48,559 bases of DNA from Gammaproteobacteria bacterium (GTDB lineage Bacteria > Pseudomonadota > Gammaproteobacteria > Pseudomonadales > Litorivicinaceae): contig PAHG01000002.1 of assembly GCA_002705795.1 (NCBI GenBank), forward strand, positions 1-48,559, written 5' to 3'. The translations under genes and the position numbers were made by a program. Within the stretch, counting starts at the first letter, position 1, and every line of letters begins with the position of its first letter. A model generated the notes under the pieces. The model was not told the DNA's origin, searched no databases, and saw only the letters and a list, made by a program, of their open reading frames with translations. Positions 15,341-31,096 of the stretch are shown piece after piece.

Positions 15341-15403
15341 GAGCCTTAAATGATGTTGCTTTTGCGGGGCAATATAACAGCAATCGAGGACAGTATCCGT
15401 AAC

Positions 15404-16498
15404 ATGAATGAGAAAAATAAAATTGCGATTGTAACTACTGCAAGGAGTGACTTTAACACCGTCAAGCCTTTAGCCGAGTCACTATTGCGCGCGGGCTTCG
15501 ATTGCGGATTGATCGTTGGCGGCATGCACTTTCTTGAGACGAAGGGATTTTCAAAAAATGAAATAATTAAAACAGGGATTCCAATTTTTGCGGAGTTAGA
15601 CTTTTTCTGTGACGATCCAAATATGACCCCCTCGTTGTTTCTCGAGGGGCTATCAAAATGTCAGTCACTGGCAGCGAAAAAATTAAAAATTCTTAATTTG
15701 GATCTTCTCGTAATAACGGGAGACCGACTGGAGAATATCCCAATAATGATGTCGGCATTGCTCTACCAAATAAAAATGCTTCACGTTTGCGGGGGGGATG
15801 AGACGAAAGGCTCCCTAGACAATATAGCCCGAAACTTAATGTCTAATTTTGCGACCTATCATTGTGTGTCTATGCTGGAACATCAACAAAAGTTGATTTC
15901 TTTGGGAGTCAAACAAGATCGCGTTGTCATCACTGGAGATCCGGGCATCGATGAGCTCCACAATACGGAAATAATCGAAAAGGAAGCGCTGCGTCGTAAA
16001 CTAGGGATCAATACCCAAAACTTCTGCATCCTAATTTATCACCCCGAAACAAATCCTTACCACTATAACCTTAATTCAATCCTCTCAGGCTTGGAAATCT
16101 ATTCAACAACCAATACGGTGCTTTATGTAGAACCCAATATCGATCCCTCAGACGTCACTGTCAGCCGAGGCCCTATTGGAGAAAACTTTTCGTATATAGC
16201 CAACCTCGAACCATCTCTCTTTTACAATGCATTGCATTACTGCGACTTCATCATCGGAAACTCTTCGGCTGGAATATGGGAGTCTCCTTCTTTCGGAACG
16301 CCTGCGATCAACATAGGTAGTAGGCAGGATGGGCGAAAACGGAATAGGAACATAATTGATGTAGAAAGCTATGATCCGGATCAGATTAGACTAGCTATAG
16401 GCACACAACTGTCACGAGGCAAATACAAAAACTTAAAAAACCACTTTGGCGATGGTAGCGCGTCAAAACAGATCCTTGAGGTCATCAAAGGTATATAA
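15404..16498 (+). CDS. UDP-N-acetylglucosamine 2-epimerase, hydrolysing (NeuC/LegG family)
   Basis: Releases UDP while inverting C2, giving ManNAc or a 2,4-diacetamido-trideoxymannose. Family blocks seen are IVTTARSDFNTVKPL near the start, VITGDRLENIP, CGGDETKGSLDN, YHPETNPYH and the late IGNSSAGIWESPSFGTPAINIG. I use the ATG giving MNEKNKIAIV because the homologous proteins begin here and GAGGA lies 13 bases upstream; an in-frame ATG at 15350 would add 18 residues. It is on the plus strand with one following gene, an island within an otherwise minus-strand cluster. Confidence 0.93.
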   Translation: MNEKNKIAIVTTARSDFNTVKPLAESLLRAGFDCGLIVGGMHFLETKGFSKNEIIKTGIPIFAELDFFCDDPNMTPSLFLEGLSKCQSLAAKKLKILNLDLLVITGDRLENIPIMMSALLYQIKMLHVCGGDETKGSLDNIARNLMSNFATYHCVSMLEHQQKLISLGVKQDRVVITGDPGIDELHNTEIIEKEALRRKLGINTQNFCILIYHPETNPYHYNLNSILSGLEIYSTTNTVLYVEPNIDPSDVTVSRGPIGENFSYIANLEPSLFYNALHYCDFIIGNSSAGIWESPSFGTPAINIGSRQDGRKRNRNIIDVESYDPDQIRLAIGTQLSRGKYKNLKNHFGDGSASKQILEVIKGI

Positions 16499-17146
16499 AT
16501 GCATTGGGAAGAGCAGCATAAAACAAAACATTGGGGTACTTATCCTGAAATAGATTTGGTTCGAAAGGCTAAGCACCACATGTCTCTAATTACAGTACAG
16601 CAAGACGTCAGACCAAAATGCTTAGACCTGGGTTGCGGTGCCGGCGCCAACTCGATCATGTTAGCTGATTGTGGTTTTGACGTACTAGCGATTGATGGCT
16701 CTCAAACGGCTATAAGCCGTTTAGAAAATAGAATAGCCGGTACGGACAAAGAGCAATACATTCAATGCCGTGTCCTTGATTTCAACCAGCTCCACGTAGT
16801 GCAAGATCGCTTTGAGTTTATCGTAGATAACTTGTCCGTCTACGCTAACGCTATAGACGAAATAAGCGAATGTCTTTCTACTATCAGAACGCTTATGGGC
16901 CGTGATTGCAAATTCTATTCAAGAGTATGGGGGAAAAGAACATCTGGTCTCGCAGACCCAGAAAAGTACTTTTACTGCGATCCCCAAGAAGGGCCTTGCA
17001 AAAATACTGGAGAGACCACCGTATTTGATCGAGACTTAATTGACAGGCTATATGGCTCGCTGTTTCGGATCGAAGTCGATGAGATTGAAACGACCTATCA
17101 TGATGGCACCGTCTGGCACGAATACATTATACAATCGAGCGCCTAG
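16499..17146 (+). CDS. SAM-dependent class I methyltransferase
   Basis: A 215-residue protein with motif I CLDLGCGAGANSIML (41-55), an acidic end of beta-2 in VLAIDGSQTA and a motif-IV-like FIVDNLS. Its ATG follows the 2-epimerase stop directly (TAAATG), so it is co-transcribed and probably acts on the same sugar branch. It ends tail-to-tail with the FAD oxidoreductase, overlapping by 4 bases. The target is unknown; an O-methyl or N-methyl decoration of the glycan is the simplest inference. Confidence 0.87.
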   Translation: MHWEEQHKTKHWGTYPEIDLVRKAKHHMSLITVQQDVRPKCLDLGCGAGANSIMLADCGFDVLAIDGSQTAISRLENRIAGTDKEQYIQCRVLDFNQLHVVQDRFEFIVDNLSVYANAIDEISECLSTIRTLMGRDCKFYSRVWGKRTSGLADPEKYFYCDPQEGPCKNTGETTVFDRDLIDRLYGSLFRIEVDEIETTYHDGTVWHEYIIQSSA

Positions 17147-18513
17147 GCAAGGGCGTTCGCACTCTCCATCGATGCTGCGATTATATCTTTTTTGAAAAAC
17201 AAAGACGGATCGCATAGCGATACTTTATCGCCAAAGACCTCGTTGACTTCGGAACAAAGCTCATGGAAAGCGTCTCGAAATCCAGTGCGATACATCCTGA
17301 AGGTTTTCGCGATGTCTCGATATTCCCCCCAGATCGGCGATCCTTCCACTAAATTTAACGCGGAGATTTCATCCCATACTTTTTTCAGAAACAGCCCGTC
17401 GTCCAGATCTTCAAACCCTCCGACTGGACACTCACATGTGATAAAAGTTATCCCATTTTTTACCTGACCTGAATATTGTCCTGCATAAGCGGTTCTATAT
17501 GTCAGATCGTCCGAATTGAAATTTTGATGGTACGTAAAATCTCGAACTTGATCTAAACGAACCCCAAAAATAACAAAGCGCATGGGGGTCCCATAGGCCA
17601 AAGAGGATAGTTGATTAGTATCACGGGTAAGCAGCTCCAGAGCGCCAAAGTTATCATTTTCCCACATCAGGTTGGCCGTGGAAGCTATGGATTCACCCGA
17701 GTTTTCGAATAGTCTTAAACGAGCCCCCTGAGATTCGATTTTCCCCAATGACGTTTTCAATTTTATACTAACGCCTTGTCCTTCTAGAAAATGTTTACAC
17801 GATTTTACAAATCCATTGAATCCCTCACCGCTTGAGGGATAGTAAGTACGACTAACATTTTGCACAGATGCAAGCGACCGTTTGGATACCGCAATCACAT
17901 CATCTAGAAACTCGGTTGATCTCTTGAGTTTCCACATTTCTTCGTCAGAACCAAATTTGAGTCGGCCCAATGACGTTCTTAAGATGGCATCCGCCTCTAC
18001 TTGAGAAGCTGGCAAGCGATAAATTTGATCAAAGATACTCTCAAAAATTTGTGAAGCCCCAACGCCATAACGATACTGGAATAGTTCGGCTAGAGAAGAC
18101 AATTCGTCTATGGAGTTTGAATCCAAGGTGGCTGGCTTGCTCTTTAAATCGGACCAAATTGATTGTTTTTCGTGATCTGTTAGGGATGTGAGGTTGGGGA
18201 GCGAGAAATCCGGAGTAACAACGCCCCCGTAACTGCTACTGCTCTGGACTTCCACACAGTCCAAGGAAGTATCCATATCCGCCACAAACTCGTACAGAGG
18301 ATCACTGAAAGCGTCAAACATGTGAACGCCGGCGTCAACCAAAAAGCCATTAAGCGGGACCGAGACAACCGAACCACCAAAAAATGGTGCGGCCTCTAGC
18401 ATTAAGATATCAGAGCCACGTACTCCACGATCAAGAAGAGCTTTGGCAAGCCCGATACCCCTCAAACCAGAGCCGACTACAGTAAACTCATGATGCGTAT
18501 TTTCACTAGTCAT
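17143..18513 (-). CDS. FAD-dependent oxidoreductase (amine-oxidase / UDP-galactopyranose-mutase-like fold)
   Basis: A 456-residue protein beginning with an FAD dinucleotide-binding motif (VVGSGLRGIGLAKAL), an acidic residue at the end of the second strand (LMLEAAPFFGG) and the FLVDAGVHMF block. This is the layout of NAD(P)-binding protoporphyrinogen-oxidase-like and UDP-galactopyranose-mutase-like flavoproteins. It is too divergent to call a mutase. The ATG overlaps the upstream SDR stop (ATGA). Flavoproteins of this kind occur in glycan loci, and a redox or ring-contraction step on a sugar is possible (inference). Confidence 0.82.
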   Translation of the reverse strand: MTSENTHHEFTVVGSGLRGIGLAKALLDRGVRGSDILMLEAAPFFGGSVVSVPLNGFLVDAGVHMFDAFSDPLYEFVADMDTSLDCVEVQSSSSYGGVVTPDFSLPNLTSLTDHEKQSIWSDLKSKPATLDSNSIDELSSLAELFQYRYGVGASQIFESIFDQIYRLPASQVEADAILRTSLGRLKFGSDEEMWKLKRSTEFLDDVIAVSKRSLASVQNVSRTYYPSSGEGFNGFVKSCKHFLEGQGVSIKLKTSLGKIESQGARLRLFENSGESIASTANLMWENDNFGALELLTRDTNQLSSLAYGTPMRFVIFGVRLDQVRDFTYHQNFNSDDLTYRTAYAGQYSGQVKNGITFITCECPVGGFEDLDDGLFLKKVWDEISALNLVEGSPIWGEYRDIAKTFRMYRTGFRDAFHELCSEVNEVFGDKVSLCDPSLFFKKDIIAASMESANALA

Positions 18514-19277
18514 ACGGCAGTCCAGCCCCCGTCAACAGCTATCACTTGCCCGTTTACATACTCGCTACGTTCTGACAACAAAAAACAAATCACTTCTGCA
18601 ACATCATTCTCGGACGCCATTCTACCGCTTATGGTGCGAGAGATGTAGCGATCCTTGAAACTAATATCCTGTCCTCTCTCGATACCACCGGGAGCCACAC
18701 CGTTCACGCGAACATCCCCAGCAAACCAAGAAGCGAGCCATTTTGTGATGTGATTTAGACCAGCCTTACTCGCGCCATAAGAGGCTTCATTGGTCATTCC
18801 AGTATCGACGTACAAATCAAATTGAGGAGCAACTAAACCGGCAATTGAGGAGACATTCACGACACGACCACTATGCGCCCTTAACAGTGAAGCCATTGAC
18901 TGACAGAGGAAAAAAGGAGCAAATAAGTTTACTTTAAAGACTTGTTCCCAAGCACCAGGGGTTTCCTCTAAAAAATCTACACCCCATCCATCAATTTCCC
19001 CATAAAAAGCCGCATTATTGACTAGGCCTAAAGAAAAATTAGGGGAAACCGACAAGTCTTCACTGAGTAGGTTCCGAATATGGTCAACAGTCTTGGGAAT
19101 GTCCGCTAACAAACTCAAGTCCAGTGTAAGAAAATGATCAATATGTTCTTCAAATTTTGGCCTTACTGAATCGACCCCAATGACTACGACCGAGTCACTA
19201 GATTCTTTTAAAGAGCAGCAAATTCTGGCTCCCAGATGACCCGAACAACCCGTTACTAAAACAACACTGTCATTCAT
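18510..19277 (-). CDS. Short-chain dehydrogenase/reductase, PtmA-like
   Basis: A 255-residue SDR with cofactor motif VTGCSGHLGARI (7-18), NNAA, catalytic Ser in NVSSIAG and YGASK. The insert VAPQFDLYVDTGMTNEASYG, followed by VRVNGVAPGGI, recalls the SDR PtmA encoded in Campylobacter legionaminic-acid flagellin loci (from memory of that family, not a search). It overlaps both neighbours by four bases (ATGA). The role is probably oxidation or reduction of a sugar intermediate. Confidence 0.88.
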   Translation of the reverse strand: MNDSVVLVTGCSGHLGARICCSLKESSDSVVVIGVDSVRPKFEEHIDHFLTLDLSLLADIPKTVDHIRNLLSEDLSVSPNFSLGLVNNAAFYGEIDGWGVDFLEETPGAWEQVFKVNLFAPFFLCQSMASLLRAHSGRVVNVSSIAGLVAPQFDLYVDTGMTNEASYGASKAGLNHITKWLASWFAGDVRVNGVAPGGIERGQDISFKDRYISRTISGRMASENDVAEVICFLLSERSEYVNGQVIAVDGGWTAV

Positions 19278-20722
19278 AACTTACTCGCTCTTGCACCCCT
19301 GTAGATGTAGTAGTAGGTCAATGCGCTCACTACAAGGACCGCGCTCATTACCCGCATAATTACTAAATAGCCTTGGTGATCTGGCCCCAAAAATAGTCGC
19401 TCGATACCCAAAAGAGCCACTACACTCACCACACTGGTCAAGACCATCAAATCACTAAAAAAGGCTCGGCGGATAATTACCATCGAAAATTTTCCGTGCC
19501 AAACAATTACGATCATGAGGCTTATCACAAGACTTACTGCTGCTACAGATACGATGTCTCTTGTACCAGAAAAAGTGGTAATAATTGCGATAAAACCTAG
19601 TGCACATAAAAGGGTAACAACCGGCGTTTTCCAATCATTTCTTACTACCCATACACAACCCAAAAGCGAGCAGAACGCGCCAACTGAAAACAAACAAATA
19701 ATAGCTCCATTACCGTTCTGCATAGCGGCCTGATCAAAACCTTCTTTGAAGTATAAACCCCAGAGAAAGTTAAGGGCTGGGTCGAGGCAATATAATCCTA
19801 ACAGCACACAAATGAATGTCTGGCGCAAACCTTGGGTAAAGAGTCTGAAAAATCTCGCTGACTCTGGACGCGAACAAGCGGCTAACCTAGGGAGCCAAAC
19901 CACGGATATAAACGCTGATAAAATACCCACGAGCATATCGCTCGCCCGCAATTGATAGTGAATTTGACTAGCAAATCCTGAAATTTGATCGCTCGATAGA
20001 AATCTACACACAAGATGAAGCCCTAGCATTACAGCAGAGACGGAAAAGGCCACATATAGCACCCTCAGAATAGTCGTTAGTTCCGCTGTATCCATGAGCC
20101 TCGGGAACTCAAACAACAGTCGAGCTCTCGGCTCCAACATTATCCAAATAAATCGTCCTACATGGGCAGCCAAAAGACCGTAAAGGAAGCTTTGTATAGA
20201 ACCATTCCCAACAAAAATAGAGTAAATCAATAGTACATTTAAAACTGCAACAGAACTTTGACTAAAACCGAAACATGAATATGCATTTACACCGCCACTG
20301 ATCACTATTGATAGGTAAGATATAAATGTAATGAACGCAATCAATAGTAGATCATAGGTTCCAAGACTTGAGACTAGGTACTCATCACCCCCAACTAAAG
20401 CTAAAATACTAATCGGAAAAGTTAATAAAAGACCGGTTATCAATATATATGGTATTGAGAAAAGGCTTATTACATTAGAAAAGAGACGCGACGCTTGCTG
20501 AGTTATCGGAAGTAACTTAATTAAACTAACAGCGACGCTTGAAGCTAAGAAAATCTGAGGTATTAGCTCAGGAAATACGAGTATAGCCACCAAGGCGTCT
20601 GACAATTCGGTTAAACCAAACTCGGACGCGATAACGTAGTCGCGTCCAAAACCGGTGAGACGACCAACCAACATCCAGGATCCCGAAATAAGGGAGACCA
20701 TAAGCAGTGAATTGAGCTTCAA
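19274..20722 (-). CDS. MurJ/MVF-like lipid-linked glycan flippase
   Basis: A polytopic membrane protein of about 482 residues with some 12-14 hydrophobic segments. Near the start GRLTGFGRDYVIASEFGLTELSDA matches the MVF/MurJ family, including the conserved Arg-Asp region. It likely exports the lipid-linked repeat unit, replacing a PST-type Wzx. I choose the TTG at 20722 because TTGA overlaps the sugar-transferase stop and AGG lies 8 bases upstream; an ATG at 20701 is the alternative. An ATG at 20860 would overlap the previous gene by 142 bases and is unlikely. Confidence 0.85.
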   Translation of the reverse strand: MKLNSLLMVSLISGSWMLVGRLTGFGRDYVIASEFGLTELSDALVAILVFPELIPQIFLASSVAVSLIKLLPITQQASRLFSNVISLFSIPYILITGLLLTFPISILALVGGDEYLVSSLGTYDLLLIAFITFISYLSIVISGGVNAYSCFGFSQSSVAVLNVLLIYSIFVGNGSIQSFLYGLLAAHVGRFIWIMLEPRARLLFEFPRLMDTAELTTILRVLYVAFSVSAVMLGLHLVCRFLSSDQISGFASQIHYQLRASDMLVGILSAFISVVWLPRLAACSRPESARFFRLFTQGLRQTFICVLLGLYCLDPALNFLWGLYFKEGFDQAAMQNGNGAIICLFSVGAFCSLLGCVWVVRNDWKTPVVTLLCALGFIAIITTFSGTRDIVSVAAVSLVISLMIVIVWHGKFSMVIIRRAFFSDLMVLTSVVSVVALLGIERLFLGPDHQGYLVIMRVMSAVLVVSALTYYYIYRGARASKL

Positions 20723-21291
20723 TTCGCCGACCTGAAGGTGATCATGGTCAACAAGATCACTCGCAGATACATGCGCAGAGAACGATGCCTCACCCACTCT
20801 AAATCGGCTCGTAGTCGCTGCTCGAAGGTCGCATTCGAGCGGTACTTTATTTGAGCGCATCCGGTCAATCCAGGCCTAACACTGAGACGATCTTTAAGAT
20901 CGCTAGCGCTATACAGGCACTTCTGTTCAACTACGTCTGGTCTGGGTCCTACCAACGACATATCTCCTAAAAGTACATTAAACAGCTGTGGAATTTCGTC
21001 CAAGCTCGACCGTCGCAGGAATTTACCTAACGCTGTAACTCGAGGATCGTTGGCTGTTGTAGAGTAAGAATCGGGACGGTTCCTCAGAATCATCGTTCTA
21101 AACTTAAATATTTGAAACTCTTCTCCGAATTGACCTAATCGAGTCTGTACAAAAAAAATCGGCCGACCATTGAAAAAAAAAAGCAACAAACTGATTAACA
21201 GCAAAAAAGGAATAAATGCGACTACAAAAAACAAGCTCAGCGTTATATCGAAAACTCTGATTAGTCGATCGTCCGTCATTTGATTAGTCAT
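20719..21291 (-). CDS. Initiating phosphoglycosyl transferase (PglC/WcaJ C-domain family)
   Basis: A 190-residue small-form bacterial sugar transferase that moves a sugar-1-phosphate onto undecaprenyl phosphate. After a short cytoplasmic head there is one hydrophobic re-entrant helix (LFFVVAFIPFLLLISLLLFF). The family blocks follow: FKFRTM, then RRSSLDEIPQLFNVLLGDMS and VGPRPD, with SVRPGLTGCAQI near the end. The length equals PglC-type enzymes lacking the N-terminal WbaP domain. The start has AGGA seven bases upstream. It most likely begins assembly of the glycan in this locus, perhaps with a sugar made by the 4,6-dehydratase branch. Confidence 0.92.
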   Translation of the reverse strand: MTNQMTDDRLIRVFDITLSLFFVVAFIPFLLLISLLLFFFNGRPIFFVQTRLGQFGEEFQIFKFRTMILRNRPDSYSTTANDPRVTALGKFLRRSSLDEIPQLFNVLLGDMSLVGPRPDVVEQKCLYSASDLKDRLSVRPGLTGCAQIKYRSNATFEQRLRADLEWVRHRSLRMYLRVILLTMITFRSAN

Positions 21292-21483: not shown

Positions 21484-22761
21484 TTAGACGTCTAAGTAAC
21501 TCTCTATCTCCCAAGGTGTCACGTGGCTCCGAGATTCATCTACCTCTAGCATTTTCAAGCGGACATATTTCCCCACGAATTCGCGACCTAAAACCGTCGT
21601 AAGCTCCTCGTCTTTCTCTAAATCACGAAGAGCGTCCTCGAGTGAATTCGGAAGAGTTGCGTTTTTTGAATCGAGTTCGGTAACCACGCCCGACATATCC
21701 ATCTTATCTCTAAGACCGATCCATCCCGCAGCGCAAATAGCCGCCTGAGACAGGTATGGGTTGACAGCTCCATCTGGCTGGCGCAACTCAAATCGACCCT
21801 CCTCTGGGACTCGGATCATTACAGAACGGTCGTTCCCACCAAATGAGACGCGATTAGATGCCCATGATGATCCTGACCGTGTATTTGAACAGTATAAACG
21901 CTTATATGAATTCACTGATGGGTTCAAAAAACAACTTAATGACCTGGCATGCTTGAGTATACCCGCCACAAAGCTCTGCCCTAATTCGGAAAGACCCGAT
22001 GTCCCACCGTGAGATGGACTTGGCTCAAATAGGTTTACACCGGACGCGTCCCAAACAGAGACATGAGTGTGACAACCACTACCAGTCAAGTCGTTAAATG
22101 GCTTCGGCATAAAGGTCGCTCGGGCCCCGTAGTCTTCTGCTATCGATTTAACCGCCAGCTTGAAAAACCCATGCTTATCCGCGGTTTTCAGGGCCTCATC
22201 GTACTTCCAGTTTATCTCGAATTGGCCGTTAGCGTCCTCATGATCAGCCTGATAGCAATCCCATCCCAGCGAGTTCAAACAATCCATAACCTCTGCGATA
22301 AAGTCAAAATGAGACCACAGTACTGACTGACTATAACAAGGCTTTTCTGCAACGTCCGCGCTATCGTAGAGCTTAATCGAAGAGTCTACCTCTTTTTCCA
22401 GAAGGAAAAATTCGGCCTCTACTCCCGTTTTTACTGTCATACCTTGGTCGGAAAACAAACTCAATACTTTCTTGAGCAGTCCCCTTGGGCATTGATCTAG
22501 CGGTATTCCATCCATGTACAAATCCGAAGGCGTCCAAGAGACCTCTTTTCTCCACGGGAGCACGAACTCAGAGCCGAAATCTGGGATCGCGATTACGTCG
22601 CTATCGGCGGGCGTTAGGTCGAGCCAGCTCGCGAAGCCGGCGAACCCCACACCGTCTCTGTTCGCTGCTTCTTTAGCGTGTGCAGGAATTACCTTCGAAC
22701 GCTGGATACCTCTAAAATCACAGTAGTTGATCAATACTTGTTTTAATTCGTGCTGTGTCAC
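21484..22761 (-). CDS. Glutamine synthetase-like ligase, type III / GlnT / gamma-glutamylmethylamide synthetase-like
   Basis: A 425-residue ATP-grasp-like glutamine-synthetase-fold ligase. Metal and active-site motifs are EAEFF (115-119), HEDANGQFE (174-182), GSGCHTHVS (227-235) and GRFELRQPD (323-331). DHEDANGQFE together with MPKPFNDLTGSG is typical of the GlnT/GmaS group, whose members join ammonia or an amine such as methylamine to glutamate. I use the GTG start at 22761 because AGGTGG lies six bases upstream; a TTG at 22779 also exists. It lies 31 bases after asnB, in the same operon. Substrates are undetermined. Confidence 0.88.
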   Translation of the reverse strand: MTQHELKQVLINYCDFRGIQRSKVIPAHAKEAANRDGVGFAGFASWLDLTPADSDVIAIPDFGSEFVLPWRKEVSWTPSDLYMDGIPLDQCPRGLLKKVLSLFSDQGMTVKTGVEAEFFLLEKEVDSSIKLYDSADVAEKPCYSQSVLWSHFDFIAEVMDCLNSLGWDCYQADHEDANGQFEINWKYDEALKTADKHGFFKLAVKSIAEDYGARATFMPKPFNDLTGSGCHTHVSVWDASGVNLFEPSPSHGGTSGLSELGQSFVAGILKHARSLSCFLNPSVNSYKRLYCSNTRSGSSWASNRVSFGGNDRSVMIRVPEEGRFELRQPDGAVNPYLSQAAICAAGWIGLRDKMDMSGVVTELDSKNATLPNSLEDALRDLEKDEELTTVLGREFVGKYVRLKMLEVDESRSHVTPWEIESYLDV

Positions 22762-22792
22762 AGTAGCCCACCTTTTCAATCAGATGCTGGTG

Positions 22793-24538
22793 TCAGAGGG
22801 TGCTCGACCACTCACTCACGGCCAATAGTGTACGCAATTCCCGCGTGTAATTCTTTTCCCCTGCCACATGTTTCGATAGACAATCCAGAACGGCGGCAGT
22901 GTCATACAAATCAGGATTCAGCTTCGCCAACTTTTCTTTTGCCCATACCTTTAAGGGTCCTCGGATCCAATCTCCAATAGGTAGCGTGGGCATCGACTTC
23001 TTCCTGTACATATGTGATGTCGGGAATTCACGTAGCCCATAATCTTTTAGGAACCTCTTTCCTATTCCTTCGGATAGCTTGGCGTGGACTGGCAACCTCG
23101 ATAGAAATTCAGAGACGCGATGGTCAAGGAATGGTGAGCGACCCTCTATTGATAAGGAGGCACCCATCCGATCCCCCTTAATGAGATTGTTCCCTGGCAT
23201 CAGCCGAGTCAGTTCGTAGGCCGCGATCTGGGAAACTGGTTCAAGATCTCGGTACGGGGCGAGGAAAGCATCGAATAGATCTTCCGCCGAACCTGCGCCA
23301 AGCGCCACATCACCACGCAAAAGATAGCTACGCATCGATGGATCCATATATGTAATTGCTTGAAAATAATGACTTAGTGGAAAATTGGACCGCATTTGGT
23401 GACTAAAAAAAGCCTCGTTATGCGAGAAACCGCCCATAATTTCGTCAGGGCCGTCCCCATTAAATGCAACGATATAGCCGTCCTTATGCGCTTGTTCACA
23501 AAGCTTCCTAATCAAAATAAAAGAAAAGTCACCGTGGGGCTGGTCGGCATGGTGAACACAGGCCCTTAGCCCTTCAACTACATCCTCGGGCCCATAAGAG
23601 ACTCGCCTAAGATCAATACCGAATTGATCGGCGACACCCGTAGCCAACGAAAACTCGTCATATGCTAACACCGGGCAGGTCAAGCCATAGGCGCGAATTG
23701 GCTGGCGATCCCAACGCCGGCTAAGATGCGAAGCAATAATCGAGGAGTCTACGCCCCCCGACAAGAACATACATCCGTCGACATCAAAGTCGAGCTGAGA
23801 TGTAACTGCCTTGCCTAAAAGGACATCGAACTCATCGAAATTGGGGTCCTCGTCGCCAGACTCTAGATCCCAAGACCAGTAGCTCACCGGCTCACTAAAA
23901 CCATGCTGATCGAAAAGAATGTAGTTACCGGGGGCAAAATGGGTAATTCCTGTAAAGCATGTATTTGGCGGGGGAACGTAGTTGAACGCATGAACCAGTC
24001 CCAGCGCCTGGTAATCAATCTGATCTCCGATCCCCGGTAGGCAACGTAATGCCTTAATCTCACTAGCAAACGCCAAACCGCCCCCTCTGACCGAACTGAG
24101 ATAGCAGGGTTTGATGCCCTGCCTATCCCTCGCCAAGATGCCTGTTGATGTAGCCGAGTCCCAAATAAAAAAAACAAACATCCCCACGAGATCCTCAAGC
24201 AGTAACTCGCGCTTTTCCCGCCATAAGTGGATCAACACCTCAGTATCGCAGCGCGATTTGAAGGCGTAACCCTTGGCCTCGAGATCCTTGCGAATCGACT
24301 TGTGGTTGTAGATCTCGCCGTTAAATATCACATGCACAGATCCGTCGGCGTTTGTCATCGGTTGATGGCCATTCTCTGGGTCAACAACTGCCAGACGAAC
24401 GTGAGCCATCCAAGATGGTCCGATTTTCTCCACACCACGCTCGTCTACTCCACGGTAGCCGATACTATCGATCGCCTTATCTAGGTGATCCTTCGTATAT
24501 ACCTGACTAGGATCGAAGATCCCAACCAATCCACACAT
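22793..24538 (-). CDS. asnB: Asparagine synthase-like glutamine-dependent amidotransferase
   Basis: A 581-residue two-domain enzyme. The N-terminal class II glutaminase starts MCGLVGIF, with the nucleophile Cys2, FNGEIYNH (72-79) and RCDTE (96-100). The C-terminal synthetase domain has the PP-loop SGGVDSS (260-266). The start is excellent (TAGGAGG seven bases before ATG). Such proteins either make asparagine or, in glycan loci, amidate uronic acids or similar carboxylates (WbpS-like). Its 11-base spacing to the glycine decarboxylase and 31 to the synthetase-like gene make it part of a specialised operon. Confidence 0.93.
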   Translation of the reverse strand: MCGLVGIFDPSQVYTKDHLDKAIDSIGYRGVDERGVEKIGPSWMAHVRLAVVDPENGHQPMTNADGSVHVIFNGEIYNHKSIRKDLEAKGYAFKSRCDTEVLIHLWREKRELLLEDLVGMFVFFIWDSATSTGILARDRQGIKPCYLSSVRGGGLAFASEIKALRCLPGIGDQIDYQALGLVHAFNYVPPPNTCFTGITHFAPGNYILFDQHGFSEPVSYWSWDLESGDEDPNFDEFDVLLGKAVTSQLDFDVDGCMFLSGGVDSSIIASHLSRRWDRQPIRAYGLTCPVLAYDEFSLATGVADQFGIDLRRVSYGPEDVVEGLRACVHHADQPHGDFSFILIRKLCEQAHKDGYIVAFNGDGPDEIMGGFSHNEAFFSHQMRSNFPLSHYFQAITYMDPSMRSYLLRGDVALGAGSAEDLFDAFLAPYRDLEPVSQIAAYELTRLMPGNNLIKGDRMGASLSIEGRSPFLDHRVSEFLSRLPVHAKLSEGIGKRFLKDYGLREFPTSHMYRKKSMPTLPIGDWIRGPLKVWAKEKLAKLNPDLYDTAAVLDCLSKHVAGEKNYTRELRTLLAVSEWSSTL

Positions 24539-24549
24539 CTAAAGACCTC

Positions 24550-27240
24550 CTAGCCCAATACAATTTTTGACACTGGCATGGTATACGGCGCGGTTTCTAC
24601 AAAGGCCATATCGGCTTTGGCCTCTTCAATGATTTTCATGACTACCTCAACCAAATAGTCTAGCTCTTGTTTACTCTCTGACTCGGTAGGCTCAAATAAC
24701 ATAGCCCCGCTAAGTGAGTCGCCATAATAAACACATCCGGCGCCAACCAATGTCGGTGGATGAACTCCGTAATCAATCATCCTCTTTGCTAAATCGATCG
24801 GCTTTACACCGAGTGAAGATGCATCCATCACAAACTCATGCATACACCGACCCTCAAACGCCACTGGCAAAAACTCCTGGAGTTTCATTTTGAGATAATT
24901 AGCGTTAAGGACCGCATCCTCCGTGGCGCGTCTGAGGCCAGTACCACCCATCGTCTTTAGATAATAATACGCGCGAATCAATACCGACACGTGACCGAAA
25001 AACATCTTGATTGGCAGGATCCCAGGGTCAATCCCATCGTAAACGAGGCCCGGAGATGTAAACTTGGCAAGGAATTGTTTGACTCCGACCGGACCAGCCC
25101 CTGGCCCACCTCCACCATGTGGCGTGGAGAGGGTCTTGTGTAAATTGATATGCGCAATATCGAAGCCCATCCGGCCCGGACTGGCGTAACCCATAAGGGC
25201 ATTCATGTTTGCTCCATCATAATACGCTAGCGCACCGGCGGCGTGCGTAAGTTCTATCAGACTTTCGATCTGCGCCTCAAACACCCCAAGTGTACTTGGG
25301 TTCGTAATCATGACTACGGCGGTCGTATCATCCAGAGCAGCTTTCAGCACATCAATATCGATGAGGCCATCCGAGGTTGACGAAATAGTTTGGACAGAGA
25401 AACCACACATTGCCGCAGTGGCAGGATTCGTTCCGTGCGCCGATTCCGGAACAATTACTTTGTTACGACGCAGATGACCCTCACCTATATGATACTTCTT
25501 TGCGATCAATAGCCCTTTTAACTCACCGTGGGCACCTGCGCCAGGCGTAAGATCAATAGCATCCATACCTAACAAAAGCCCCAACATAGACTTTAACTCG
25601 TCCAAGATCGCAATCAAACCTGGCATTGATTCGGGGGATTGCAACGGGTGCAAATATTTTAACTCGGTCAACTCGGCCAGAAGGTCATTGCGCTTGGGGT
25701 TATACTTCATCGTGCAAGATCCAAGCGGATAAGAACCCGTATCGACTCCATAGTTCCGGCGGCTCAAATTAGTGAAGTGTCTTACCACCTCAATTTCTGT
25801 CGCCGCTATTGGGTGATCTTGCGCTAATCCAGTAAATTCTTCATGTATTCGATCCCGTATTTTACGAAACGTGGAGGCTCCTTGCGGACAAATTAAGTTA
25901 ACCGCAGTTATAAAAGCTACCAGATCTTCTACAGACTTGGATTCGGTAACTGAAACCAAGATCTGCCTCGCGTTGAGCCTCGTATCAGCGGCGTTCGTAA
26001 CGCCTAAGTTCACCCCTAGCTCACGACCAGCGTCAATTACAGCCAACAGGTCAGCTGCATTATCAAAAGATAACAGCAATTCAAATCCAATCGCCTTTCC
26101 GCGATCAACCGTTATCCCTTTCATTTGCGATAAAGCATCACCTAAGATTTTAGCCAACAAACATGCGCGCGTGTAACGCCATCGAATACCTCCTACCCCA
26201 TATAAGCGAAAAAAAATACAGGCTCTTAGGGCGTTTAAAGCCTGATTGGAACAAATATTAGAGGTAGCCTTGTCACGGGCCACATGCTGCTCACGATCTT
26301 CATAGACTAAAGCGAAGGCAGGCCTACCTCGAATATCGGTTACGCGACCAACTAGGCGACCAGGAAGGTAAGGTTTGAACTCATCAGACGCGGCGATCAT
26401 CCCTAAATGAGCACCACCAGCGAACATATGCAAACCCAGTGGCTGACCCTCACAGGCTACGATATCTGCGACCTTAGATACGTCAAAACCAAACTCAGAC
26501 AAACCATACGGGTGACCGGTAGCAATGATGTAGAGCTCTGGAAAGCTTTTCACCGCCCGGACATATGACTCGAAATGACTGTGTAAAGCAAGTGTCCCGG
26601 GCAACTCAAAAACAACAGACGACACATCTCCGCAAAAATCGGCTAGCAAGCCAAGCAGATCATCCACACTATCGAAGGTATGGCAGGTAGCGTCAGTGGC
26701 AAAGCAATATGTCTCCAGTACCGCCCGACTGCCGTAGGAAACTGAAGACTGAACAAATACGCGTTTTTTATTTGGCGACTTTTTAAACGTCATCAAGACC
26801 GCCTCAGCGAGAGCAGTAGCTCCATCGTAGTGTCCGCAAGTCACCACAGCGAGGCCTGTAAGCTCTTGAATTGAAGACTGAAATTCATAGAGCGCTTGCA
26901 ACAGACCCTGGCTCATCTCAGGCTGATAAGGCGTATAAGCGGTCAAAAATTCTCCACGAGAAACGATTGCATCAATCACGCTGGGCACGGCGTGGTCATA
27001 ACAGCCATTACCCAAGAAACAGGAGCTATTCAGTGCTGTGGAGTGACCGGAAACCTGACGCAGGACTTTCTTCGTAAGAGACCGCTCATCTAATCCCTCC
27101 CCGAAAAACTCAAAATCTTTGAGGACTGCCTGTCGCACATCTTCAGGAATTATGGAAAATAACTGAGACGCATCCGATAACCCCAAGTATGACAGGATGT
27201 CATCTCTATCGGAATCCAACAAACCTAATAAGTCTCGCAA
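24550..27240 (-). CDS. Fused glycine decarboxylase (GcvPA-GcvPB), orphan P-protein
   Basis: A PLP protein of about 896 residues. Residues ~1-450 match the GcvPA (subunit 1) type: FLGNGCYDHAVPSVI and TAYTPYQPEMSQG. Residues ~460-896 match GcvPB (subunit 2): GSYPLGSCTMKYNPK, ESAHGTNPATAAM, YYDGANMNAL and the Schiff-base Lys in INLHKTLSTPHGGGG (K702). The two-subunit type is normally split, so this is a natural fusion. It catalyses glycine decarboxylation with transfer to a lipoyl H-protein in the normal pathway, but no gcvT, gcvH or lpd gene is nearby. I use TTG at 27240 (AAGG eight bases upstream); a TTG at 27249 is possible. It is the first gene of the operon with asnB and the ligase. Confidence 0.92.
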   Translation of the reverse strand: MRDLLGLLDSDRDDILSYLGLSDASQLFSIIPEDVRQAVLKDFEFFGEGLDERSLTKKVLRQVSGHSTALNSSCFLGNGCYDHAVPSVIDAIVSRGEFLTAYTPYQPEMSQGLLQALYEFQSSIQELTGLAVVTCGHYDGATALAEAVLMTFKKSPNKKRVFVQSSVSYGSRAVLETYCFATDATCHTFDSVDDLLGLLADFCGDVSSVVFELPGTLALHSHFESYVRAVKSFPELYIIATGHPYGLSEFGFDVSKVADIVACEGQPLGLHMFAGGAHLGMIAASDEFKPYLPGRLVGRVTDIRGRPAFALVYEDREQHVARDKATSNICSNQALNALRACIFFRLYGVGGIRWRYTRACLLAKILGDALSQMKGITVDRGKAIGFELLLSFDNAADLLAVIDAGRELGVNLGVTNAADTRLNARQILVSVTESKSVEDLVAFITAVNLICPQGASTFRKIRDRIHEEFTGLAQDHPIAATEIEVVRHFTNLSRRNYGVDTGSYPLGSCTMKYNPKRNDLLAELTELKYLHPLQSPESMPGLIAILDELKSMLGLLLGMDAIDLTPGAGAHGELKGLLIAKKYHIGEGHLRRNKVIVPESAHGTNPATAAMCGFSVQTISSTSDGLIDIDVLKAALDDTTAVVMITNPSTLGVFEAQIESLIELTHAAGALAYYDGANMNALMGYASPGRMGFDIAHINLHKTLSTPHGGGGPGAGPVGVKQFLAKFTSPGLVYDGIDPGILPIKMFFGHVSVLIRAYYYLKTMGGTGLRRATEDAVLNANYLKMKLQEFLPVAFEGRCMHEFVMDASSLGVKPIDLAKRMIDYGVHPPTLVGAGCVYYGDSLSGAMLFEPTESESKQELDYLVEVVMKIIEEAKADMAFVETAPYTMPVSKIVLG

Positions 27241-27777
27241 ATTAAACAACCTTAAAATAATAATTACGGACGCATAAAATTTCTAAACGATCCTAACTCA
27301 CCTACCTATATTCACCGAGCAGCGGCTAGCAGGATTGCTTCAGCCCCTGTTGCCTCAAGAACTCTCGCAAAAATATCAAGATTAATCTGGCAATGTACTG
27401 AATGTTCCGGACAGTACCTCACAAATGCATACAGTTACATCCTATTCTCGCAACATTCCTCAATCGTAAGAACATAACTGAATGAAAGAAGCTTTACCCC
27501 CTCGAACATCCCGCGCAACACAAAGAGGGGCGAATTAGTGCAAGAAATGATACTAGAAAAAGTTAATTGATACCTTGACCAGTACTAGCAAACTACTGAG
27601 AAATTCCACTCATATCAGGAATCCTCCGGGTAATCTTGTTGAGGACATTGACTAGCGCTCTAAATTTTATTGGCATCCAGAGGGCGATGTGATCAAGTCT
27701 TTGGTCCTAATTAAGTAGCTCGACTGCCCAAGGAGACCGCGAGATACAAAAAAATCTTAAAGCTCTGATTACTTTGG
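27241..27777. other. 537-base gap between the aldolase and the glycine decarboxylase
   Basis: Should contain the promoter of the gcvPAB-asnB-ligase operon. I see no glycine riboswitch core, no terminator and no transposon end. One 36-codon frame (27312-27422, minus) reads like the tail of a protein and is listed separately. The rest has no recognisable content. Confidence 0.4.
27312..27422 (-). pseudogene. Short protein-like frame, possible gene remnant (36 aa)
   Basis: A GTG-led frame stops at 27312. It reads as an amphipathic protein tail (LDIFARVLEATGAEAILL, then AAAR). An in-frame stop lies four codons upstream of the GTG and no ribosome binding site is seen. The composition looks coding, so it may be the surviving end of a deleted gene next to the glycine decarboxylase. 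I do not recognise the family. Confidence 0.25.
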
Positions 27778-28611
27778 CTACTTCTGACTGCGTGCCACGA
27801 CAGCATTCACGCACTGGATCAACCGCTTATGATCAGCCTGAATTTGAACTGAATCCCTTGAGAGTAACGTTTCCTCAAACTCACGAAGGGATGCTATTTC
27901 TCGCTCGAAATTAGTCGTAGATAGTAGGTCTCCTATAGTCTTACTCCGGCGATGAAAAGTACGAGAGAGAATTACCGAGGAAGACCCTAACCGCATGTGT
28001 TCAGCCAAAACCAGAGATCCGGGCACCAATCCCTCGTCCATTCGTGCGATACCACCGAATCCGAACGGAACTTTTACTTGATCACACGCTGTTGCTAACT
28101 TCTCGACGGTTCCATCGGCCAAAAGCTCAAACATAAAGTTGAGGCCCAGGGCTAAGTGAAGATCATTTAGCCCAAAATAAAACTCGGCAATATTCTCAAC
28201 TTTGACAATGCTGTCGAAACTTTTAACCGCTCCCACAGTCTCTACCAAAGGAATGATTTTTACGCGCCCATCCACCAAAGAAACGAACTCACTCAACTCA
28301 TCTGCTGTTTCAAACATGGGTAGCATCAAAATGTCAGCGCCAGCAGAAATTGCTTCGTCCACTTCTTTTTCGGTCCCACCGAACATAGGATTAACCCGCA
28401 CCAAAAGCTCGGCGTTTCCGACCACGGCCCTCATGTGATGGACGTCTACCAGGGTATGGCGACTAACAACAGTATCCTTGTGACCCTGCCGTTCCTGTTT
28501 CCCGTTTATCTCTAAATCTACGAAAATACGATCCGTACCACACACCACGGCATGGCGAGCGAGTTCTGGGTCATTGCAAATAAACATAAGTTTTAGCTTT
28601 GTCGAACGCAC
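27778..28611 (-). CDS. HpcH/HpaI-type aldolase (citrate-lyase-beta superfamily)
   Basis: A 277-residue TIM-barrel protein. The family features are RIFVDLEINGKQERQGHKDT near the N-terminus, LVRVNP, ADILMLPMFE and IIPLVETVGAV, where the metal-binding Glu is expected. The superfamily catalyses Mg-dependent aldol or Claisen cleavage/condensation with pyruvate, oxaloacetate or malyl-CoA-like substrates. I choose the GTG start giving MRSTKLKLMFICND because an AAGAAGA purine run precedes it; a TTG at 28644 is possible. It is separated from the following operon by 537 bases. It might make a hydroxy-acid for glycan decoration, which is inference. Confidence 0.85.
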   Translation of the reverse strand: MRSTKLKLMFICNDPELARHAVVCGTDRIFVDLEINGKQERQGHKDTVVSRHTLVDVHHMRAVVGNAELLVRVNPMFGGTEKEVDEAISAGADILMLPMFETADELSEFVSLVDGRVKIIPLVETVGAVKSFDSIVKVENIAEFYFGLNDLHLALGLNFMFELLADGTVEKLATACDQVKVPFGFGGIARMDEGLVPGSLVLAEHMRLGSSSVILSRTFHRRSKTIGDLLSTTNFEREIASLREFEETLLSRDSVQIQADHKRLIQCVNAVVARSQK

Positions 28612-29108
28612 TCTTCTTCTTTGACTATCTTTTAATGTCGACAACTAACACCTCTGTCAGTATTTATTTGCTTGATCAGATCCCAATTAAGCCGCCTATA
28701 CTGAAATTCAAAACCGACGTAAAAATTTTTATAGAGCATTTGTTTAATGGATTTGTGGCTGGCCACGAATATCACACCTGAAACGAGAGTAGAGGATAAT
28801 ATTGATAACGAGGAGATAACATCGCAGAACAGATGCAATTCTCATTAATCTAAGTACGCCTGCGTTGATTAAAACCATTAATCTAATATCCTTCAGGCTT
28901 CAAGAAGATTTTCACTGCAGACGAGCACCAATGATAGATCGGACACCTAACCATTTAAATGTCTGATTATTTATCGGAATGTAGCCACGAATAACAATGC
29001 GATGTGCTTATAGCAGAATATTGAGCCTAATCCTTGAACCATTACATAAAAACTTTGAAGTCACCATTGAAGGTCAAAAGCTAGTCTCATCACTTGTCAG
29101 TCAGCCGA
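28612..29108. other. About 500-base gap downstream of the O-antigen ligase
   Basis: Contains the upstream region of the aldolase. One short minus-strand frame (28632-28838, TTG start, one hydrophobic stretch) is open but has no recognisable features. An 11-base direct repeat is listed separately. I find no tRNA, terminator or mobile-element end. Confidence 0.35.
28843..28886. repeat. Two 11-base direct repeats, 33 bases apart
   Basis: CATTAATCTAA occurs at 28843-28853 and again at 28876-28886, start to start 33 bases, about three helical turns. The second copy overlaps an imperfect dyad (GATTAA, five bases, TTAATC). This could be a regulator site upstream of the aldolase, or coincidence in A/T-rich DNA. 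Confidence 0.3.
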
Positions 29109-30362
29109 TCACTCTGGAATTTTTCCGAAAGGTGGTGTTTCCACGTATTTCATCTCATTTAATGACAATAGGAACAGTGGCGTCAAAATCCAGAAAATTC
29201 TTCCCTCGACCAGACTACTGAAGTGCCCATTGAAAAAGCTTGTAGCTGATATACCAAGAAGGATGCTCATACCAAAAATACTTATGAAGGTCAGTTTAAA
29301 TCCCAACAAAAGACTCGCCAGAAAAAGTAAAAAGATTCCTAATCCAACCAACCCGAATTCCGCAGCTATATGCAGGTATTGCTGATGCGGATCACTAGAC
29401 CGCTTTGCTCTCCAACCCGTTGCTTTTGCTTGCGCAACCTTGCCGTAGTCATCTTCGAAGGAACCGGCACCAGAGCCCAAGAGAGGCTTATCACCGATCA
29501 TATCTAAGGTGTTATCCCACATAACGATCCTTACCCCCATCGATGAAAACTCAGGATCCTGCCGACCATCGGTCACAGAAGCTATTTCAGACAGAGCATT
29601 TTCAAATCTGTCCGCGGTCGTGGGCACCAACAAAATAAGAGTGACAAAGGTCAATCCAATGGACGTGGTAAGGAAAAGCCGGTATTTGGGAATCGCTATC
29701 CAAGAAAAACAGCATAAGCCGACCATGGTAAACAAATATCCGCTACGACCAGTTGAACTGAACACGGTGACCAGGAGGAATAACGCAGCTACTGACATTA
29801 GGATTCTTGATCTGCCGGGCAGCTCTGAAAAATTAGTACCTAACAAACACAATATGGCCAAGGAGGACAGTCCAAGGTATATCCCCTGTACCACGTCACT
29901 TCTCATTATGACCGCTGGACCCTCGTACACGTCATTTAGTAAACCAATCACCCAAACCGCAACCGCGCAGGCGACCCCAAAGATAGATATCACTCGGAGC
30001 ATAACTATTTTGAAATCATCGGAGACCAATGCCATCACCAAGAAGAAAAGAAAAATTTTGCGCCATGAAACAACCTCATGTAAGCGCGCATCAACGGACG
30101 CATCGCCCCAGAAAGTGCTCAGGACTATCCAGAAAAAAAATGCTAGGAGAATCTTTGCCGGCAAATAGGTCTTACAGCTTGAAATAATTGTCTTCCTAAG
30201 ATGGGACGAGGATGCGACAACAAGTATCAAGAGAAACTCGACAAGGTTGACGAGCGCTGGCGAGAAAGTGATTACCACTAGTTCGATTAGTAGCAACACC
30301 CGCGCCGCCTCGGTGGCTGAAACACGTTCACCTATGGACCTTAGGGGGATATTAGCCCGCAC
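29109..30362 (-). CDS. O-antigen ligase / polymerase family membrane protein (WaaL/Wzy_C-like)
   Basis: A polytopic protein of 417 residues with about ten hydrophobic segments. The large periplasmic loop has GVRIVMWDNTLDMI, GSGAGSFE and SSDPHQQYLHIAAEFGLVG, the H-x-x-Y-L-type motif of O-antigen ligases. It would join the polymerised or single-unit glycan to lipid A-core, or polymerise it. The correct start is GTG at 30362: GGAGG lies six bases upstream and the GTG shares one base with the upstream stop (TAGTG). An ATG at 30425 would overlap the glycosyltransferase by 64 bases. Confidence 0.88.
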   Translation of the reverse strand: MRANIPLRSIGERVSATEAARVLLLIELVVITFSPALVNLVEFLLILVVASSSHLRKTIISSCKTYLPAKILLAFFFWIVLSTFWGDASVDARLHEVVSWRKIFLFFLVMALVSDDFKIVMLRVISIFGVACAVAVWVIGLLNDVYEGPAVIMRSDVVQGIYLGLSSLAILCLLGTNFSELPGRSRILMSVAALFLLVTVFSSTGRSGYLFTMVGLCCFSWIAIPKYRLFLTTSIGLTFVTLILLVPTTADRFENALSEIASVTDGRQDPEFSSMGVRIVMWDNTLDMIGDKPLLGSGAGSFEDDYGKVAQAKATGWRAKRSSDPHQQYLHIAAEFGLVGLGIFLLFLASLLLGFKLTFISIFGMSILLGISATSFFNGHFSSLVEGRIFWILTPLFLLSLNEMKYVETPPFGKIPE

Positions 30363-31096
30363 TAATCGCCTCCGAAAAATTTGAAAATAAATCTCGGTAG
30401 TGTCTGACGACGAAGACGGTTCCAATGATAGCGAAGTTTAAGATAAATCGTGCCATGCTTAGCTCGGCTTGCATCGAGCGCGGTATCAAACATTCCGGTA
30501 ATTGAACCCTGGGTGGCCAGTGGTCTAGAAAACCAGTAGTGCCGTATGCCTAGATCCTGATCCATTAGTTTGATCTGATGATCAGCCTGGCGATCAATTT
30601 TATGAGATCCCAGCCAATCTAGGCGACGTTCGCAACCATGACGGTCCAATAGATAGGCCTCGGCAGTGCTGAGGTACTGCTCGATGAGCTCATCGTCTTG
30701 CTTCAGAAAACGATCATCAATCTTATTATCGGCCCCGCCAAGAAAGATGAGCCAACCCGGGCTCAGGTTCTGTAGGAGCTCTAAAACTCTCCGGAAGCTC
30801 TCCTCAAACGTGTCAAATAATAGGACGTCGTCCTCGAGTACCAGACAGACATCGGCCTCTGTATCCAAGAATCGACGCTGTGCCTCGAAGTGCTTAAGAA
30901 CGTTAGAGATACTCTTGGGGGACATATCACCATCCACACCAGCACAAGCAGCTTCAGATAACTCGTCGGCATCATGATCCCAAATATATTCGAACTTAAC
31001 ACCCAGTCTTTTCTCGAGACCAGCCATATGAGCGTGCCGATCGATGAACGTTTTTACGGTCACGACGTAGACCGGGATTGATTCAAGAGAATTCAT
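30362..31096 (-). CDS. Glycosyltransferase family 25-like (LPS biosynthesis)
   Basis: A 244-residue soluble protein. The start IPVYVVTVKTFIDRHAHM and the motif VCLVLEDDVLL (EDD, metal/nucleotide binding) are typical of GT25 LPS glycosyltransferases, which usually add galactose or glucose. STAEAYLLDRHGCERRL in the middle resembles the acceptor-side block of the family. It is coupled to the ligase by a one-base overlap and follows the GT4 gene by 6 bases. Confidence 0.85.
   Translation of the reverse strand: MNSLESIPVYVVTVKTFIDRHAHMAGLEKRLGVKFEYIWDHDADELSEAACAGVDGDMSPKSISNVLKHFEAQRRFLDTEADVCLVLEDDVLLFDTFEESFRRVLELLQNLSPGWLIFLGGADNKIDDRFLKQDDELIEQYLSTAEAYLLDRHGCERRLDWLGSHKIDRQADHQIKLMDQDLGIRHYWFSRPLATQGSITGMFDTALDASRAKHGTIYLKLRYHWNRLRRQTLPRFIFKFFGGD

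Follow-up and report, generated by a model that had tools for sequence, protein, structure and literature searches.

A bacterial gene set for the probable conversion of glycine to methylamine and its attachment to a surface sugar acid

A 48,559-nucleotide stretch of DNA from a Gammaproteobacteria bacterium of the family Litorivicinaceae (GenBank assembly GCA_002705795.1, contig PAHG01000002.1, positions 1 to 48,559; the whole stretch is called the window below) contains a gene unit that encodes a fused glycine decarboxylase P-protein (GcvPA-GcvPB), an AsnB-type amidotransferase and a type III glutamine synthetase (GS)-like ligase of the gamma-glutamylmethylamide synthetase (GmaS) class. The unit belongs to a module that is real, rare and conserved and that is a new variant of glycan amidotransfer. 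Judged by family and residue comparisons, a few bacteria probably use this gene set to turn glycine into methylamine, keep it on glutamate and attach it to a surface sugar acid. In place of glutamine, the amidotransferase probably takes its nitrogen from gamma-glutamylmethylamide, and the module would include a methylamine source of its own. The proposal that GcvPA-GcvPB, GmaS and a dedicated AsnB replace the ordinary amidotransferase in a nonulosonate-type cassette, where a methylamine relay would lead to an N-methylamide, is given slightly better than even chances. Even chances are given to a reading in which a glycine-cleavage P-protein has become a stand-alone glycine decarboxylase, its methylamine enters a GmaS/AsnB relay that writes an N-methylamide on a surface sugar acid, and a four-gene module is swapped for the ordinary amidotransferase between otherwise similar cassettes. 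Among the leading results of literature searches aimed at these points, with most subscription journals outside their coverage, no N-methylamide glycan, methylamine-forming P-protein or glycan use of gamma-glutamylmethylamide was described. A candidate N-methylamide glycan (PMC7281560) was set aside, as the N-methyl group in the available text of that article is a methylation-analysis derivative.

Arrangement of the gene unit

On the minus strand, the order of transcription is HpcH/HpaI-like protein, fused P-protein, AsnB-type amidotransferase, type III GS-like ligase, small phosphoglycosyl transferase (PGT) and MurJ-like flippase. The P-protein gene (24550-27249, minus strand) encodes 899 amino acids that score above the cut-offs of both the GcvPA and the GcvPB model of NCBIfam, and its product is proposed to be an H-protein-independent glycine decarboxylase. 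The following AsnB (22793-24538, minus strand) is of the kind termed type 2 below, with gamma-glutamylmethylamide as the proposed nitrogen donor, and the ligase (21484-22779, minus strand) reaches 523.7 bits with TIGR03105 (cut-off 469.6). An earlier reading made from the sequence alone had placed a fused glycine decarboxylase, an asparagine synthase and a GS-like ligase in one unit, which the coordinates and family models confirm, and had located them between a phosphoglycosyl transferase (20719-21291) and a Wzy_C protein of the O-antigen ligase type (29109-30425), which was likewise found. Of the spacings given there, 11 and 31 bases, the former holds for GcvP-AsnB; the AsnB-ligase gap is 13 bases with a TTG start at 22779, and the 31-base value corresponds to a ligase start 18 bases further in. 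The HpcH/HpaI-like gene (27778-28644, minus strand), described as an aldolase just upstream, does lie upstream, but 528 bases separate it from GcvP. No credible gene was seen in this interval (27250-27777), which is the position occupied by the PGT gene in the betaproteobacterial loci. When two gaps were searched for a decayed or hidden gene by tblastn with PGT, HpcH, MurJ and GcvPA, chance-level matches only were obtained (8-20 residues, E 0.33-2.2). A search of 27000-29200 for a glycine riboswitch found nothing in Rfam up to E 0.1, and promoter-like sites were present without excess (12 found, 20.7 expected).

The module travels with one type of AsnB

When 84,980 species were scanned with the P-protein of the window, one module locus was among the best 80 loci, which is a lower bound. 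Locus L128 (CAIQOO010000083.1, genome G828, an uncultured beta proteobacterium) encodes a MurJ-like protein, HpcH, PGT, GcvPA, GcvPB, AsnB and GmaS, with GcvPA and GcvPB as separate overlapping genes. Comparison of its AsnB with 180 genomes of its family yielded 22 genomes at E<=1e-85, and AsnB of the close type (79-100%) was found in four: G828 (L128), G1181 (L260), G1231 (L261) and G1133 (L262). GcvPB and GmaS are present in all four loci and GcvPA in three, L260 ending at a contig edge. The module members are at least 51% identical to one another for AsnB and GcvPB. All but one (G1272) of the 18 remaining genomes were examined, and all 17 cassettes contain HpcH, PGT, AsnB and a glycosyltransferase-like protein (GT), with a MurJ-like gene in 14 and NeuB in 16. 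Their AsnBs are only 33-37% identical to that of L128, and GmaS was found in none of the 17. One of them, L278, has an ordinary-type GcvPA (REQHIR) approximately 7 kb away.

The co-occurrence was evaluated over 30 distinct AsnB cassettes, leaving out L219 (on the same contig as L268) and including L183, whose AsnB is truncated at the contig end; the stretches covered were mostly 7-10 kb on each side, and less in L183 and L184. Five of the AsnBs, here termed type 2, form a clade (100/100) apart from 25 type-1 AsnBs (100/99) and ten other AsnBs, in a tree for which the program warns of long branches. GcvPB and GmaS accompany type-2 AsnB in five of five cassettes, and GcvPA is visible in four. 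Within the stretches covered, the type-1 cassettes contain neither GmaS (0/25) nor GcvPB (0/25) nor any module-type GcvP, while HpcH and PGT are found in 25/25, GT in 24/25 and NeuB in 18/25. HpcH is part of the core cassette with both AsnB types. The chance of this association by plain counting is 7e-6, which is not a true probability because the loci are related. The module comprises five loci in two different bacterial families, and the grouping is beyond chance for that reason. Co-occurrence of GcvP, AsnB and GmaS beside sugar transferases, which the sequence-only reading had proposed to look for, extends to all type-2 loci, and the genes, whose scattering in relatives would have refuted that reading, are linked in L128, L260, L261 and L262.

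The type-2 AsnB or HpcH core was rare in the genomes sampled: HpcH is present in 7/369 genomes of the class and 4/398 of the phylum (own genome counted), and AsnB matches at E<=1e-85 occur in 3/300 genomes in the order of G828 (G828 counted). The HpcH loci L185, L186 and L220 have no AsnB within the stretch. Plasmids were searched for the full module; among the matches listed (12 of 160, 20 of 482 and 8 of 539), GcvP identity was at most 42% and that of two AsnBs at most 35%, below the level between module members. With HpcH, three plasmid records were obtained, two of them with an HpcH-AsnB core. The core is located on a Pseudohalocynthiibacter plasmid typed as conjugative (L180, NZ_CP049039.1 98425-131126), and on a Roseovarius plasmid the HpcH and AsnB matches adjoin each other. 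Plasmids carrying the HpcH-AsnB core suggest a route for spread.

The ligase belongs to the GmaS class

The closest solved structures of the window ligase are 7cql (E 1.2e-121) and 9qur, a glutamate--methylamine ligase, and 9qur is also closest to the L128 ligase (E 4.9e-144). According to the available text of PMC7948447, GmaS differs from glutamine synthetase by Ala48 in place of Asp50 and by Trp300 in place of the Glu-flap glutamate, and the amine pocket of RhGmaS is formed by Lys30, Tyr147, Gln175, Asp177, Glu179, Glu186 and Asn188, with Arg312 as a catalytic residue. From the match of the numbering at an offset of 20, we infer that 7cql is RhGmaS. In an alignment of 60 rows, the ligases of the window and of L128 have every one of the ten GmaS residues, and the window ligase has neither of the two residues with which glutamine synthetase handles ammonia. 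The other main branch (20 rows), taken for putrescine-type synthetases, has Ile at 177 and Ser, Ala or Asn at 300, and the single glutamine synthetase-like row (L060) has Asp and Glu at the two ammonia positions. In the tree, the window ligase falls inside one GmaS clade (98/96) and the L128 ligase inside another (100/98), both on long end branches. By sequence, the window ligase is a member of the methylamine-specific GmaS class rather than of a general GlnT class, which corrects a detail of the sequence-only reading. Because two different GmaS lineages fill the same position, it is the activity of GmaS that appears to be needed in this slot.

In known methylamine use, GmaS is the entry enzyme and gmaS is described as a validated marker of methylamine-using bacteria (PMC7948447, available text). 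MgsA, MgsB and MgsC adjoin all ten ordinary GmaS genes examined and none of the GmaS genes in the five module loci (window, L128, L260, L261 and L262); weak MgsA matches in the window and L260 (32-35% over approximately 145 aa) fit the glutaminase half of AsnB. A PF01645 search of the window's own genome (G000) and of G828 detected GltB and remote relatives, and those tested are 26-36% identical to MgsC, compared with at least 68% among MgsC genes; no MgsC-like gene was found in either genome by this search.

Changes in the P-protein

The window P-protein was compared with 107 GcvPB and 56 GcvPA halves of sufficient length from the other P-proteins of the collected loci. Numbering between the human and window proteins was taken from an alignment and checked on the lysine that binds pyridoxal 5'-phosphate (PLP; chain 711 = human 754). 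The PLP-lysine and glycine-site motifs are kept. Ala324 (codon 26278-26280, minus strand) aligns with Arg373 of human GLDC, a position with Arg in 55 and Lys in one of the 56 other GcvPAs and with Ala in all four module GcvPAs. The window and L128 proteins share Glu317 (Gln in 54/56 others), Val323 (Ile in 56/56 others) and Ala324, and the REQHVA motif is also found in L261 and L262. An insert, LVGAGC (residues 834-839; 24733-24750, minus strand), is present in all five module P-proteins and in none of the 107 others, and the five module GcvPBs form one clade (99/93). A docking model predicts salt bridges between the H-protein and two residues of human GLDC, Arg373 and Lys376, at which mutations are known to cause disease (PMC7259800, available text).

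As this predicted H-protein contact is lost and the insert is new, the window P-protein probably does not load a lipoyl carrier, the role that the sequence-only reading had assigned to it. The retained glycine and PLP motifs together with the lost contact fit a P-protein that would decarboxylate glycine without handing the aminomethyl group to a lipoyl arm. By P-protein chemistry, protonation of the decarboxylated-glycine intermediate would yield methylamine.

No gcvT or gcvH was seen within the module cassettes. The own genome (1.79 Mb, 31 contigs, 91% complete) carries gcvT and gcvH lined up on contig C11 with the gene for another P-protein (943 aa), a finding that rules out that the window P-protein is simply the housekeeping copy, the outcome that the sequence-only reading had reckoned with. 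G828 likewise has gcvT, gcvH and gcvP together, away from the module, and G1181 has a second P-protein besides that of the module. Elsewhere in the genus (21 genomes), no full-length P-protein match exceeds 37% identity with the window protein, and partial matches reach 44%. For the ligase, two of these genomes gave no match, and in 19 the matches were confined to E 1e-30 to 1e-35, a level typical of ordinary glutamine synthetase. Since the relatives have only these distant matches and C11 carries its own gcvT-gcvH-gcvP, the GcvP-AsnB-GmaS set is an addition in G000.

The AsnB-type amidotransferase

The window AsnB exceeds the TIGR01536 cut-off (335.4 versus 267.1 bits), starts with MCG (Cys2 nucleophile) and has a GATase and a synthase domain. 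Its best NCBIfam match by E-value is TIGR03108 (eps_aminotran_1), for which its 349.7 bits are well under the cut-off of 816.9. The AsnB-type enzymes WbpS and WbqG of this family amidate glycan sugar acids into uronamides (PMC7468200, available text). The best solved relative is the hydroxyamidotransferase 7ylz. We take this structure to be TsnB9 of trichostatin biosynthesis, which presumably moves hydroxylamine from a gamma-glutamyl donor. Near the nucleophile, the HRGPD motif reads YRGVD in four of the five type-2 AsnBs and YRGPD in L262; among 27 other AsnBs, the motif has P in 26 and Y in none. Since this AsnB is accompanied by GmaS and a dedicated source of amine, its donor is probably gamma-glutamylmethylamide.

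Proposed pathway and alternative explanations

In the proposed pathway, the remodelled P-protein would decarboxylate glycine without lipoylated H-protein and release methylamine. GmaS would then use ATP to couple methylamine to glutamate, the step for which the residue comparison argues most strongly, and the resulting gamma-glutamylmethylamide would carry the amine as glutamine carries ammonia. The glutaminase-like half of AsnB may hydrolyse this compound, so that methylamine would pass to the synthetase half and be joined to an activated sugar carboxylate. This would leave the glycan with a uronic or nonulosonic acid in N-methylamide form, whereas type-1 cassettes would give a plain amide. 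The unusual nitrogenous glycan substituent suggested by the sequence-only reading is supported and sharpened in this way to an N-methylamide; an amidine, which it had also considered, is unnecessary to explain the set.

Several observations weigh against this pathway. Only five module loci are known, four of them from one family. The H-protein contact at Arg373 is a docking prediction, and the second predicted contact is mostly kept: three of four module GcvPAs have Lys at the position of Lys376 (window Lys327), and L261 has Arg there. A P-protein without H-protein is very slow. The module P-protein is the only one found in G1133 and G1231, assemblies with no completeness figure, and might also serve glycine cleavage there unless the assemblies are incomplete. 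The type-1 AsnB of L183 also has YRGPD, and RGPD is kept in MgsA, an enzyme that handles gamma-glutamylmethylamide in the N-methylglutamate pathway. Along with L262, these cases weaken YRGVD as a mark of a donor change, and the motif is suggestive only.

The same relay could run on another amine if the P-protein decarboxylated alanine or serine, leading to an ethylamide or ethanolamide on the glycan. A remodelled P-protein would be compatible with this, and GmaS-type enzymes are understood to accept ethylamine, but around PLP and substrate the protein has the same conserved motifs as ordinary P-proteins specific for glycine, which makes this explanation unlikely. Just as unlikely is that the P-protein uses the H-protein of the genome and gives the aminomethyl group to some other step, with GmaS and AsnB using external methylamine. 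GcvH is present in G000 and G828, and aminomethyl-lipoyl-H-protein does serve outside glycine cleavage, in [FeFe]-hydrogenase maturation (PMC11736057, available text); nevertheless, the cassettes lack any visible gcvH or gcvT, the lost contact and the new insert speak against H-protein use, and the tight GcvPA-GcvPB-AsnB-GmaS order suggests a single pathway. Slightly less probable again is that AsnB uses glutamine to form an ordinary uronamide while GcvP and GmaS take part in some other modification of that glycan. Glycan-locus AsnB enzymes do yield plain amides (PMC7468200, available text), and the differences on the glutaminase side are modest and not strict, yet GcvP and GmaS occur with type-2 AsnB only and never with the 25 type-1 AsnBs.

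The link of GmaS to type-2 AsnB (5/5) also speaks against the view that the ligase assimilates environmental methylamine and that its AsnB neighborhood is incidental. This would accord with GmaS as the entry enzyme of methylamine use (PMC7948447, available text) and with the mgsABC genes adjoining ordinary GmaS genes; the missing MgsABC in the five loci and the PF01645 result for G000 and G828 render it very improbable. Least probable of all is that these bacteria rely on the module P-protein for glycine cleavage: no other P-protein was found in G1133 and G1231, but gcvT, gcvH and gcvP are together elsewhere in G000 and G828, and G1181 has its second P-protein.

The surrounding glycan cassette

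The locus is a nonulosonate-type surface-glycan cassette that contains the operon. Besides HpcH, the core cassette in the window includes the PGT gene (20719-21291, minus strand) and the MurJ-like flippase gene (19274-20860, minus strand), whose open reading frame overlaps the PGT gene and probably has its real start internally. The HpcH protein, matched by Pfam, is predicted to have the HpcH/HpaI fold (predicted local distance difference test score, pLDDT, 88; Foldseek top match 3qz6, E 1.7e-11), and R83, E135 and D161 are invariant across ten homologues; we take these to be the active-site Arg, Glu and Asp of HpcH/HpaI aldolases. The recurrent GT (12455-13726, minus strand) has no Pfam or NCBIfam match in its window copy, and its fold prediction (mean pLDDT 60) was not used. 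Nonulosonate genes encode a NeuB-type synthase (8670-9740, minus strand), a LegC-type aminotransferase with an N-terminal CBS domain (10711-12210, minus strand), a NeuA/PseF-like cytidylyltransferase (13671-14366, minus strand) and a NeuC-type epimerase (15350-16498, plus strand). A WbpM-like nucleotide-sugar dehydratase (6089-7972, minus strand; Polysacc_synt_2) and a UDP-glucose-type dehydrogenase (1137-2447, minus strand), a possible source of a uronic acid acceptor, are also encoded. A flavin amine-oxidase-like protein and a short-chain dehydrogenase/reductase are encoded directly downstream of the MurJ-like gene (17143-19277).

Variations of this arrangement were observed in other loci. 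The wider core cassette HpcH-PGT-AsnB-GT, mostly with MurJ-like and nonulosonate genes, is seen in L182, L184, L196, L197 and L263-L279, and no described system was matched to it. In L185 (9427-13051), HpcH adjoins a class IV aminotransferase, an Orn/DAP/Arg-type PLP decarboxylase and PGT, perhaps another amine-making variant. L183 (983-3641) has the same core with other decoration genes: HpcH-PGT is followed by genes for a deacetylase, a formyltransferase-like protein and a sulfotransferase. In L262 (4687-8110), the interval between GmaS and the glycosyltransferase contains genes for a methyltransferase, a polysaccharide deacetylase and a protein with weak resemblance to arginine deiminase.

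Significance and comparison with known systems

If the proposed pathway is true, these bacteria make methylamine on purpose, whereas bacterial methylamine has mainly been studied as a substrate of GmaS, and the P-protein of glycine cleavage acquires a role independent of its H-protein. For AsnB enzymes, the principle of a gamma-glutamyl carrier would be widened to methylamine, and a definite glycan modification visible by nuclear magnetic resonance is predicted. It would also be a warning that gmaS as a marker of methylamine users is not always catabolic.

Several known systems are close to parts of the module. WbpS and WbqG (TIGR03108) resemble the module AsnB as AsnB-type enzymes in glycan loci that convert a sugar carboxylate to an amide (PMC7468200, available text); the module AsnB differs in its TIGR03108 score far below the cut-off and in the amine source and GmaS that travel along. 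The hydroxyamidotransferase 7ylz is of the AsnB type too and, as we understand it, takes its nucleophile from a gamma-glutamyl carrier, but it acts with hydroxylamine rather than methylamine and on a natural product rather than a glycan. GmaS of the N-methylglutamate pathway is the same ligase with the same diagnostic residues, whereas the module is without MgsABC and is proposed to use it anabolically rather than catabolically. The P-protein of glycine cleavage shares the fold and the PLP and glycine motifs; that of the module has no gcvT or gcvH seen alongside, has lost the predicted H-protein contact and contains the LVGAGC insert. A parallel in design is theanine synthesis in tea, where a decarboxylase makes a small amine and a GS-like ligase couples it to glutamate; there, the amine is ethylamine from alanine, and the gamma-glutamylamide is the end product.

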